The notes beneath the pieces were generated by a model, which saw only the letters and a program-made list of their open reading frames with translations, was not told the origin of the DNA and did no database searches. From NCBI GenBank assembly GCA_958295775.1, contig CATQHC010000002.1, forward strand, positions 1 to 64,000: a stretch of DNA of 64,000 bases. Direction: 5' to 3'. The DNA comes from Chloroflexota bacterium (lineage in GTDB: Bacteria > Chloroflexota > UBA11872 > VXOZ01). How positions within the stretch are numbered: position 1 is the stretch's first letter; the number at the start of each line of letters is the position of its first letter. Both the position numbers and the translations under genes were made by a program. Positions 1 through 7,917 of this stretch are shown here, piece by piece.

Positions 1-171
1 ACCACGCATAGCTGGGATTGCGTGGCGGGCTTCGCGCAGGCGGCGGTTGAAGCGGAGGGCGTGGAAGGCGCGCTGGTGCGGCTGGAAAGCGACGGCGAGG
101 GGATTCGCGCCGTGGAATACTCGGAAGAAGATCTCCAGGTCGTGGCCGAGCAAGGCATCGAGGTGCGCTAG
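1..171 (+). CDS. C-terminal end of an AAA-type (AAA15/OLD-like) ATPase, partial
   Basis: An open frame enters from the left edge and ends at TAG 169-171, giving the last 56 residues of a larger protein. It begins TTHSWDC and continues with an acidic, beta-rich tail ending in IEVR. A TTHS-W-C stretch close to the C terminus resembles the switch/histidine region of AAA15/AAA_21 ATPases related to OLD nucleases, where it follows the Walker B strand. The next gene starts 3 bp downstream and encodes a TOPRIM protein, a partner commonly encoded beside such ATPases. The P-loop and signature motif lie outside the window, so the family call rests on this tail and the neighbour. An SMC-like or ABC-type ATPase is the alternative. 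Confidence 0.55.
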   Translation, partial: TTHSWDCVAGFAQAAVEAEGVEGALVRLESDGEGIRAVEYSEEDLQVVAEQGIEVR

Positions 172-174
172 CGC

Positions 175-795
175 ATGGCGCGACCCACCGGCCCGCCGCC
201 CAGCCGCGTGCTGCTCGTGGAAGGCGTGGATGACAAGCACGTGGCGGGGCACATTTGGCATCGCTACGCGGGGGATCCTCCGTTTTCTCTCTTGGAAAAG
301 GAAAGCGTTGAGAAACTACTGGCCTCCATTTCACGGGAAATCAAAGTATCCGGTCGTGTGGCCGTGGGCATACTCGTCGACGCAAATTCCGACGTTGCCG
401 CCCGTTGGCAGGCGGTGAAGGACCGGCTCGCGCTAGCGAACGTCGCATTGCCCGCCAGCCCGGTTCCTGCCGGCGCGATCATCGAGGGCCGTCCGCGCGT
501 GGGCGTGTGGCTGATGCCGGACAACGCCGCGCCGGGCGAACTGGAAGACTTCGTTGCACAGATGATCCCCGCCTGCGATGCGGTCTGGCCACTGTCGCAA
601 GCATACATCGACGGCATACCGTGTGCGGAGAGGAAGTTCAGCGAGAAGAAGCAACCACGGGCGCAGGTCCATGCCTGGCTAGCGGCGCGCGAGGATCCTC
701 GCCTCATGGGCGCGGCAATTGGCGCGCGTGACTTGAACGTTGACGGCCCGCTCTGCCAGACATTCGTCGCTTGGCTTAAAGCACTCTTCACCTAG
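175..795 (+). CDS. TOPRIM-fold protein of the DUF3226 type
   Basis: This 206-residue protein has the layout of a small TOPRIM domain. LLVEGVDD carries the conserved acidic residue at Glu16, and a strand ending VDANSD supplies Asp69 and Asp73. The rest is a mixed alpha/beta body with a basic segment near residue 155. TOPRIM domains bind Mg2+ and cut or join nucleic acid; in OLD and PARIS-like systems a TOPRIM protein or domain works with an AAA15 ATPase. The ATG sits 3 bp after the stop of the upstream ATPase, so the two are almost certainly co-transcribed and probably form one complex. Anti-phage function is inferred from this pairing only. The ATG at 175 is the first start after the upstream stop and precedes the first conserved strand closely. 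Confidence 0.72.
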   Translation: MARPTGPPPSRVLLVEGVDDKHVAGHIWHRYAGDPPFSLLEKESVEKLLASISREIKVSGRVAVGILVDANSDVAARWQAVKDRLALANVALPASPVPAGAIIEGRPRVGVWLMPDNAAPGELEDFVAQMIPACDAVWPLSQAYIDGIPCAERKFSEKKQPRAQVHAWLAAREDPRLMGAAIGARDLNVDGPLCQTFVAWLKALFT

Positions 796-882: not shown

Positions 883-1135
883 TCCCCTCACCCTAGCCAT
901 CTCCCCAAGGAGAGGGAATGGCCCCAGCGGTTCGTTGCTACCCTCTTACACTCGTATCATCCCGATACTGCGAACGGCGTACGGGGCAGGCTCTAACCCT
1001 CTTCCCAGAAAGAGGGAATGGCGCTGGTGGATCGTTGCTCCCCCCTCACCCTAACCCTCTCCCCAGGGAGAGGGAACAGACCCGGTGGATCGTTGCTCCC
1101 CCTCACCCTAGCCCTCTCCCCAGGGAGAGGGGATA
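883..1135. repeat. Cluster of dispersed intergenic repeats (CCCTCACCCTAGCCCTCTCC type)
   Basis: Four degenerate copies of one unit lie head to tail in this gap, each built on CTCACCCTAGCC followed by a short palindromic CTCTCCCC-AGGGAGAGGG stem. Two neighbouring copies also share the spacer GGTGGATCGTTGCTCCCC. A further copy with the same core is at 7686-7722 and shorter scraps occur near 6712-6775. The unit has no coding capacity of its own; open frames across it are low-complexity artefacts. It looks like a small non-autonomous dispersed element or a folded-RNA repeat. Confidence 0.7.
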
Positions 1136-1218: not shown

Positions 1219-1503
1219 ATGGCAGACGACAACAGCATTAATTCCGGTGGCGCGCGGGTGGTGAAGGCGTCGGAGTTCAAGGCGAAGTGCTTGCGGCTGA
1301 TGGACGAGGTGGCGGCGAGTGGTGAGGAGATCATCATCACCAAGCGCGGCCGGCCGGTCTCGCGTCTGGCCCCTTACCAGGAGCGGCCCAAAAGCCTCTT
1401 TGGCGTTGACAAAGGACGCATCGAGATACTGGGAGATATTGACTCGCCCTTGGACGAAGCGTGGGAGGCCGAGAGCGAGCCGGACCGGGTGTTGGAGCCG
1501 TGA
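1219..1503 (+). CDS. Antitoxin of the Phd/YefM type
   Basis: The 94-residue protein has the usual Phd/YefM N-terminal DNA-binding domain: VVKASEFKAKCLRLMDEV, then a beta hairpin GEEIIITKRGRPVSRLAP. The C-terminal 40 residues are acidic and probably disordered until they wrap around the toxin. The family represses its own operon and neutralises a partner toxin. The stop codon overlaps the start of the PIN-domain gene (GTGA), the normal translational coupling for these pairs. A tandem palindromic site sits just upstream. The protein is somewhat longer than typical Phd antitoxins because of about 14 extra N-terminal residues, so a slightly later start is possible. Confidence 0.85.
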   Translation: MADDNSINSGGARVVKASEFKAKCLRLMDEVAASGEEIIITKRGRPVSRLAPYQERPKSLFGVDKGRIEILGDIDSPLDEAWEAESEPDRVLEP

Positions 1504-1898
1504 TCCTACTTGACACGCACGTCTTGCTGTGGCTCAGGGCAGGCAGTGAGCGCTTAGGCACGCGTGCCCGACGTATAATCGACGAGGCTTGGCAATCGAG
1601 TGGGGTTTGTGTCTCCGCGATCTCCTACTGGGAAGTTGCGCTGCTCAAAGAAAGGGGGCGAATCAGGTTCCCCGAGGACATCGGCCTGTGGCGGCAGGAA
1701 CAACTGGCGCAGGGCATGGTCGAATTCCCCGTAAGCGGCGCTATCGGCATCCGCGCGGCTCTTCTATCAGACTTGCACGGCGACCCGGCCGACCGGCTCA
1801 TCGTTGCCACCGCGATGGAAGGCCACACCTTAGTCACCGCCAACGAACGCATCCTCGCCTGGCCGGGGATGCTGAATTGCCTGCGCGCCACGGAGTGA
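1500..1898 (+). CDS. PIN-domain toxin, VapC type
   Basis: From the GTG at 1500 this gives 132 residues and a complete PIN ribonuclease domain. Candidate metal-binding acids are Asp5 in LLDTHVLLW, Glu45 in SAISYWEVA, and Asp95/Asp98 in HGDPADRLIVATA. PIN toxins cleave specific RNAs, usually tRNA or rRNA loops, in an Mg2+-dependent reaction and halt translation until bound by the antitoxin. The GTG overlaps the antitoxin TGA by 4 bp. An in-frame ATG 39 bp further upstream would put a long unrelated extension in front of the first beta strand and is rejected. All catalytic acids are present, so the toxin looks functional. Confidence 0.85.
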   Translation: MILLDTHVLLWLRAGSERLGTRARRIIDEAWQSSGVCVSAISYWEVALLKERGRIRFPEDIGLWRQEQLAQGMVEFPVSGAIGIRAALLSDLHGDPADRLIVATAMEGHTLVTANERILAWPGMLNCLRATE

Positions 1899-1938: not shown

Positions 1939-2114
1939 GCAGGTTACAAACCTGCGCTACCAGAAGAACAGGCGGTAGGCGCGGGATGCGAGCAATCGAG
2001 ACTGAAGCGCCGACCTTAGGTTACAAACCTGCGCTACCGGGCGAACGGGCGGTGGGCGTGGGATGCGAGCAGAAGAGACTGCAGCGCCGACCGCAGGTTA
2101 CAAACCTGCGCTAC
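1939..2114. repeat. Three-copy tandem repeat, 77-bp period, each with a short hairpin
   Basis: Three copies are spaced exactly 77 bp apart. Each contains the perfect inverted repeat GCAGGTT-ACA-AACCTGC (altered at its left end in copy 2) followed by GCTAC. The intervening part also repeats, including GGGATGCGAGCA and GAAGCGCCGACC-like segments, with about 80-85% identity between the first two units; the third is cut short. There is no supported coding potential. The exact period indicates local tandem duplication of one dispersed repeat. Confidence 0.8.
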
Positions 2115-2248
2115 TGGACAGAGACCGCGGGCGCTTGACCCGCCAGTGTGCATCCTGGACTTCAGAGCGGAATTAGTAGATTTGGACTTAGACCATAGAG
2201 ATATGATTGACAACGTACGAATCAACGCATAAGGTTGGCTCCTTGCTA

Positions 2249-7569: not shown

Positions 7570-7917
7570 GCGGCAAACTCCTTTGCAGCTAGATTGAAAT
7601 AGGTGTTGGGTACATTGAAGCGGATTCCTAAACGACTGGGAAGAGTGAGCAAGCAGTTCTAGACATCAGCTATGCACTATTCTGTCGCCCTCACCCTAGC
7701 CCTCTCTCCCAGGAGAGGGGACAAGAACGAATCCTTCGAAAACAGAGGGTGCAAGAGTGGAGCCTCTGACAACAGGGGGGAGGCCAGAAACGGAGTCTTC
7801 GACAGAAAAGTAGCAAGAACGGAATGTCCGATTAAGAGAGAGCAAATTTGGTTTCTCCCACAGGAGGCAGAACAAAGTCGGAGTCTCGCGAGACTCCAAG
7901 TCTAGGACTGGACGGCG
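7570..7917. repeat. Repeat-filled gap with a dispersed CTCTCCC element
   Basis: At 7686-7722 there is a copy of the CCCTCACCCTAGCCCTCTC unit seen at 883-1135, with its AGGAGAGGGG stem. The rest, to about 7905, is purine-rich and carries short repeats (CAAGAACGGAAT-like, ACGGAGTCTTCGA-like, CGGAGTCTCGCGAGACTCC). The last of these, GGAGTCTCGCGAGACTCC at 7881-7898, is a perfect palindrome. No gene is supported. Confidence 0.6.

Follow-up and report, generated by a model that had tools for sequence, protein, structure and literature searches.

A DUF3226 TOPRIM gene paired with an OLD-type ATPase gene in a Chloroflexota bacterium: a probable relative of phage-defence systems

Pairs of an ATPase and a TOPRIM protein are a major theme of defence, recurring in PARIS, Gabija and retron effectors. 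OLD and GajA cut DNA. They are fused proteins, and TsOLD, BpOLD and GajA represent classes 1 and 2 of the OLD proteins (classes as given in the available excerpts of PMC12796447 and PMC10568477). PARIS belongs to class 4 and consists of the two proteins AriA and AriB; its detection rules are set out in excerpts of PMC9122126. AriB is held in check by AriA, to which it is bound, until AriA meets Ocr or another anti-restriction protein (PMC11455837); once released, AriB acts as a nuclease that cuts tRNA (excerpt of PMC12409363). A further branch, in which the partner of the ATPase carries DUF3226, crosses phyla and rides on small plasmids, yet no published function for DUF3226 or for the corresponding PADLOC candidate PDC-M38 was found in the literature searched (preprints not covered). 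We describe here one such pair. In related genomes it has anti-virus genes as neighbours, and it is therefore probably akin to known phage-defence systems, with a nuclease partner that has received less study.

The window analysed is a stretch of 64,000 nucleotides (G000:C2:1-64000), the first 64 kb of contig C2 in a genome of 3.42 Mb and nine contigs. Because it starts at base 1 of the contig, its ATPase is incomplete. An open reading frame on the plus strand (1..171), open at the contig start and closed by a TAG at 169-171, encodes the C-terminal end of an OLD/AAA_15/AAA_21-type ATPase (PDC-M38A). Its 56 residues run from the TTHSW motif, with the switch histidine, to the stop. This tail aligns with the end of the PDC-M38A profile (positions 323-383 of 383; E 8.8e-13) and with the C-terminus of AbiLi (E 3.1e-9), both in PADLOC. 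The second gene of the pair starts with an ATG at 175 and encodes a TOPRIM nuclease-like protein of 206 aa (PDC-M38B; 175..795, plus strand), affiliated to DUF3226 over its whole length (PF11536 E 1.4e-47; PDC-M38B E 1.5e-36). A Phd/YefM antitoxin of 94 aa (1219..1503, plus strand; PF02604 E 1.1e-8) begins 423 bp after position 795, and the GTG start of a PIN-domain (VapC-type) toxin of 132 aa (1500..1898, plus strand; PF01850 E 1e-13) overlaps its stop. The original prediction, made from the sequence alone, had read the locus in the same order, as the end of an AAA15/OLD-like ATPase, a TOPRIM (DUF3226) frame 3 bp after its stop and a Phd/VapC-type pair about 420 bp downstream, and each of these assignments was confirmed. 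Both genes of the pair match PDC-M38 of PADLOC-DB 2.0.0 in adjacent position, and the pair is thus already listed as a candidate there. Sequence to the left of the window was sought; contig C2 holds none, and the whole ATPase was seen instead in congeners and in two further pairs of the same genome.

The closest complete stand-in for the ATPase is that of congener G004 (L028/L058), 95% identical over the 56 residues in common. This copy matched AAA_21 (E 1.7e-18) and AAA_15 (E 3.4e-17) in Pfam, of which the window has only the end, and the upstream gene, whose identity had been a critical point of the original prediction, is indeed an AAA ATPase. The AlphaFold model of the congener protein (pLDDT 87) matched SMC/Rad50 heads, PtuA, GajA and AriA with Z scores of 16-18. 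The glycine and lysine of Walker A, the aspartate and glutamate of Walker B and the switch histidine were kept in all 44 ATPases aligned. The least conserved part across the family is a lobe that coincides with codons 61-180, which also vary among the congeners.

The AlphaFold model of the TOPRIM protein reached a pLDDT of 96. Its best match was PH0156 from Pyrococcus horikoshii (PDB 2p62; Z 11.6, rmsd 3.6, 183 residues), an archaeal hypothetical protein with no function given, followed by TsOLD (Z 10.7), BpOLD (10.6), retron Eco2 (8.1), GajA (7.6) and AriB (7.5); since unrelated folds, Piwi among them, score as high as Z 7.6, the scores of GajA and AriB are not set apart from background by Z alone. 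Foldseek by itself gave no match for the model in the PDB at E <= 0.001, and the structural likeness rests on the second structure comparison. Five residues, E16, D20, D69, N71 and E124, form a candidate metal site. In 54 sequences, E16, D69 and E124 were invariant, position 20 was D in 52 and E in 2, and position 71 was N in 37 and D in 17. In a wider set of 22 sequences, position 20 was D in 12, E in 5 and another residue in 5, and position 71 was N in 9, D in 8 and E in 5. The third catalytic position of the window protein is N and not D, which we count against our preferred explanation. BpOLD binds its metals through E400, D455, D457, E404, T506 and E508 (excerpt of PMC6755086); by order and spacing, with no superposition, plausible counterparts of E400, E404, D455, D457 and E508 are E16, D20, D69, N71 and E124, and E122 may take the place of T506. 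The predicted TOPRIM fold matches that of OLD nucleases, whose metal-site positions it retains: ExxxD/E, then either DxD or DxN, and one acidic residue within the helical region.

This likeness bears on the substrate. One reading is that of a DNA-cutting split OLD, in which the TOPRIM protein would nick or degrade phage or host DNA, as do Gabija and P2 Old, rather than tRNA, while the ATPase would sense nucleotide depletion or DNA ends. The higher scores against TsOLD and BpOLD than against AriB, the counterparts of the BpOLD ligands and the proximity of the ATPase to Rad50/SMC heads and GajA all speak for it. Against it stand the separate genes, as in PARIS, and the example of AriB, whose related two-metal site belongs to an RNase (excerpt of PMC12409363); TOPRIM likeness for that reason does not decide the substrate. 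We regard DNA cutting as a serious possibility, somewhat short of an even one.

In gene organization the pair departs from OLD and GajA, as its two genes are divided by a stop and are separate also in relatives. Gabija further includes a UvrD-like helicase; the downstream genes scanned in the window are Phd and PIN, the left side being missing. With AbiL, the pair shares the AbiLi match of the ATPase tail, and the TOPRIM protein had no AbiLii match at E <= 1 in PADLOC, for which reason assignment to AbiL was rejected. The likeness to PARIS comprises separate, adjacent ATPase and TOPRIM genes, an ATPase of the AAA_15/AAA_21 type (as in congener locus L058), similar folds and carriage on prophages. 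Unlike AriB, a DUF4435 protein of about 305 residues in the structures compared, the partner here is a DUF3226 protein of 206 aa, and at E <= 1 it matched only DUF3226 (Pfam) and PDC-M38B (PADLOC), without DUF4435 or AriB. The OLD-type or PARIS-like plan that had been proposed is hence borne out by profile matches, predicted structure and gene order, and the comparison with PARIS holds as likeness and not as membership.

By analogy, the pair is most likely a PARIS-like sensor-nuclease abortive system, and we consider it reasonably probable that it acts as a self-contained two-gene split-OLD phage-defence system, in which the ATPase senses infection and restrains the TOPRIM nuclease, and the infected cell is stopped. 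The two proteins would form a complex in which the ATPase keeps the nuclease in check. Infection would be sensed by the ATPase, probably via the variable lobe between the Walker A and signature motifs, and the trigger would be a phage factor. An anti-restriction protein is a plausible one because restriction or methylase genes often adjoin the pair, neighbours that sensing of the PARIS kind would fit. The trigger would release or activate the TOPRIM protein, which would then cleave host RNA (tRNA, as in PARIS) or DNA, so that the infected cell stops. Both PARIS-like sensing and a tRNA substrate are here analogies.

DUF3226 was present in 17 of 151 relatives and in 27 of 400 genomes of the phylum. 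In these genomes the ATPase gene lay directly upstream in 31 of 33 DUF3226 loci, the two misses being cut at contig ends; locus L187, below the family cut-off and with no match to the TOPRIM profile, is outside this set. The same arrangement, on the same strand, was found in 80 of 80 genome-contig loci (the best 80 of 241 relatives), some with broken or contig-cut frames, and in four of four DUF3226 loci on viral contigs. The distance between the two genes ranged from -20 to +33 bp in the 85 loci measured. Nearly every DUF3226 gene thus has an ATPase gene directly upstream unless the end of a record cuts the locus, and the linkage is near-obligate. In L012, L022, L083, L106, L124, L130 and L142, either the ATPase or the TOPRIM gene is interrupted by a stop or a frame break; such breaks are common in defence genes under turnover and also arise from assembly errors.

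In congeners G001-G004, the pair lies in a hotspot with a constant order from upstream to downstream: a methylase of about 980 aa (Eco57I in Pfam, for the G002 copy), variable genes, the ATPase-TOPRIM pair and Phd/PIN. The variable genes differ between the congeners and carry mostly defence domains; they encode SIR2_2 and a 569-aa protein without match in G001, ApeA_NTD1 and SIR2_2 in G002, a CAP12-type TIR protein in G003 and a second AAA_15/OLD-type ATPase in G004. The methylase orthologue of the window's genome (73% identity) lies at the start of another contig, on the minus strand (C9:298-3210). Gene order in G002 agrees with the flank past this methylase and, on the opposite side, with the window (L039). 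Contig C9, reversed, therefore most likely precedes C2; the assembly gap between them would then fall inside the hotspot and most likely contain the variable genes along with the bulk of the ATPase. The gene cut by the C9 end, of which 31 residues from its start remain, had no convincing relative in 41 genomes (best E 0.076). As a separate observation, the Eco57I-type methylases are mosaic (G000:C9:298-3210, L038, L056, L057 and L058): residues ~481-780 are at 30-60% identity between some congeners and most of the remainder at 75-97%, as expected of an exchanged target-recognition part.

Elsewhere, the pair is embedded in Hma systems. The order HmaA, HmaB, pair, HmaC was found in L093 and L078, and HmaB, pair, HmaC in L099 and L132, while HmaC follows the pair after 13 bp in L092 and L094. 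A preprint reportedly describes defence candidates lodged within Hma and further systems. A PADLOC scan of the immediate neighbours of 78 loci (146 proteins, E <= 1e-12; excluding L130:932-1489, which is part of the locus's own broken ATPase, and L106 and L124, in which the TOPRIM frame is broken) gave at least 17 positives, individually or by near-identity: SIR2, TIR, an OLD-type protein, three IIG, one type III and one type I methyltransferase, three HmaB, four HmaC and two mad3. These counts are lower bounds because alignment scans give families, not distinct proteins. Twelve large or congener neighbours scanned singly had no match at the cut-off (L127, L038:4546-6252, L079, L107, L081, L108, L103, L111, L114, L061, L091 and L134). 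As controls served 74 genes more than 6.5 kb from a pair (74 of 150 sampled) and 146 genes from 20 arbitrary regions. The plain PADLOC count was not clearly enriched (at least 17/146 near versus at most 6/74 far, p 0.49), and the simple neighbour count is weak evidence because the random control also gave matches (29 families). An excess near the pair emerged only among strong matches, with the threshold of E <= 1e-60 set after the fact: they numbered at least 14 in the 146 near genes and at most 4 in the 146 random ones (p 0.026, or 0.042 with L092-L094 counted once); versus the far control (2/74) the difference was not significant (p 0.096). The nearest upstream gene was on the strand of the pair in 51 of 74 cases (p 0.0015), and the downstream gene in 31 of 73, with no bias.

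Two further ATPase-DUF3226 pairs occur in the window's genome (G000:C9:787427-789159 and G000:C3:321441-323344), with complete ATPases and a PDC-M38A match upstream in each. Both are divergent from the window pair and collinear with congeners, with ordinary chromosomal genes around them. That two of the three pairs of the genome occupy such neighbourhoods would suit a housekeeping or domesticated pair for DNA or RNA maintenance, similar to archaeal Cran1, an OLD-family protein with a non-defence role in cell-cycle progression (excerpt of PMC12796447). This reading is quite improbable considering the patchy presence of the pair, the clades that mix phyla, its carriage on small plasmids, the Hma embedding and the position of the window pair in a variable defence hotspot. 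The interpretation of the locus as an anti-phage one was partly supported. Its link to defence, expected of DUF3226 partners in relatives, was found in the hotspot of four congeners, in the Hma embedding and in plasmid and prophage carriage; it is qualified by the two pairs among ordinary genes and by the existing PADLOC candidate, and the toxin-antitoxin module does not belong to the system.

Mobility of the pair is evident from several kinds of record. Seven of nine plasmid records with DUF3226 have an annotated ATPase directly upstream (split in two in one of them); a Klebsiella plasmid of 4.07 kb has the DUF3226 match at the start of the record and an ATPase gene near its end, and one Acinetobacter record is cut at the ATPase position. 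Six of these plasmids are 4-14 kb in size. In Plesiomonas, the pair follows tail genes, P2-like in our reading of the annotation, at the edge of a prophage. Searches of a phage collection for DUF3226 relatives and of E. coli genomes for DNA similar to the Plesiomonas pair found none. A tree of 83 TOPRIM sequences required 21 changes of phylum label (minimum possible 10, mean 45 after shuffling) and contained well-supported clades of mixed phyla, e.g. L117/L128 and L062/L068. Transfer of the pair across phyla is thus likely, although the same pattern can arise from mis-binned contigs. Many of the pair-bearing genomes presumably come from marine-sponge symbionts, judging by their bin names. On the small plasmids the pair is the sole or near-sole cargo, in some beside another toxin-antitoxin pair, as might be expected if the TOPRIM protein were a toxin held by the ATPase as antitoxin and the pair secured its own persistence instead of serving in defence. 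Such an addiction module is unlikely, given that chromosomal copies accompany restriction and Hma genes and that deletion of either PARIS gene was non-toxic according to an excerpt of PMC9122126. The function of the pair lends itself to direct tests thanks to the copies embedded in Hma systems and those on small plasmids.

Comparison of the congeners revealed segments with divergent histories. In the ATPase of G003, fourfold-site differences in codons 61-180 are far above those elsewhere in this gene (p 2.2e-3, 2.5e-6 and 8.9e-4). For the same codons, G001 against G004 gave p 0.83 and G002 against G004 an intermediate p of 0.013, and G001 against G002 was not significant. In the TOPRIM gene, DNA identity between congeners drops to 47-77% per 60-nt bin over window positions 241..480 (plus strand; codons 23-102), the most divergent segment, versus mostly 75-98% over 481-780. 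The fourfold-site excess in codons 23-102 was significant for the window against G001 (p 8e-5) and G003 (p 3e-4) and not in the other eight comparisons of this gene. From these alignments, the sensor lobe of the ATPase, the N-terminal half of the TOPRIM protein and the middle of the toxin-antitoxin module look as if exchanged between species, which suggests the parts that read the trigger and choose the target. Codons 23-102 are a candidate substrate-specificity region. In AriB, K60 and K64 touch the anticodon loop of the tRNA and lie 34 and 38 residues after E26 (excerpt of PMC12409363); by spacing alone, they would correspond to residues 50 and 54 of the window protein, within the variable segment. 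More tentatively, and with a better chance of being wrong than right, the DUF3226 pairs might form a distinct split-OLD branch that guards restriction, placed within or next to methylase operons (Hma, type I/III/IIG) and firing when a phage blocks restriction, with the sensor lobe and the N-terminal specificity half of the nuclease exchanged as cassettes between related bacteria. Were this true, trigger and target would change while the ATPase and the catalytic core remained unchanged.

The Phd/PIN module lies next to the pair in all five loci of the genus examined, i.e. the window and G001-G004, which could indicate a single system of four genes. This is highly improbable and already disfavoured. 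In the genera examined beyond this one, no Phd or PIN relative lay near the pair, plasmid copies have BrnTA, RelE/NadS or nothing at this position, and the module has a mosaic history of its own; Phd/PIN is a separate neighbour module and not part of the system formed by the pair. From Phd codon 56 to PIN codon 80 the window is the odd one out (p from 3e-6 to 3e-3 across the four comparisons that include it), and two comparisons between congeners also gave p 0.002 and 0.007. The PIN half of this segment resembles copies from three other genomes of the class (66-70%) more closely than those of G001-G004 (43-49%). The N-terminal part of Phd and the C-terminal part of PIN match the congeners and the middle (window 1381-1739) is foreign and nearer to other genera, as if the specificity between antitoxin and toxin had been exchanged as a cassette.

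Two repeats were also noted. A palindromic-looking repeat of 31 bases (CCTCACCCTAGCCCTCTCCCC...) occurs in four copies, at window positions 886-1131 and 7689-7719, with zero expected by chance, and similar repeats are present in the congener loci. Downstream of the toxin gene, GGTTACAAACCTGCGCTACC occurs in three copies with a spacing of 77 bases (window 1942-2115), likewise with zero expected by chance.
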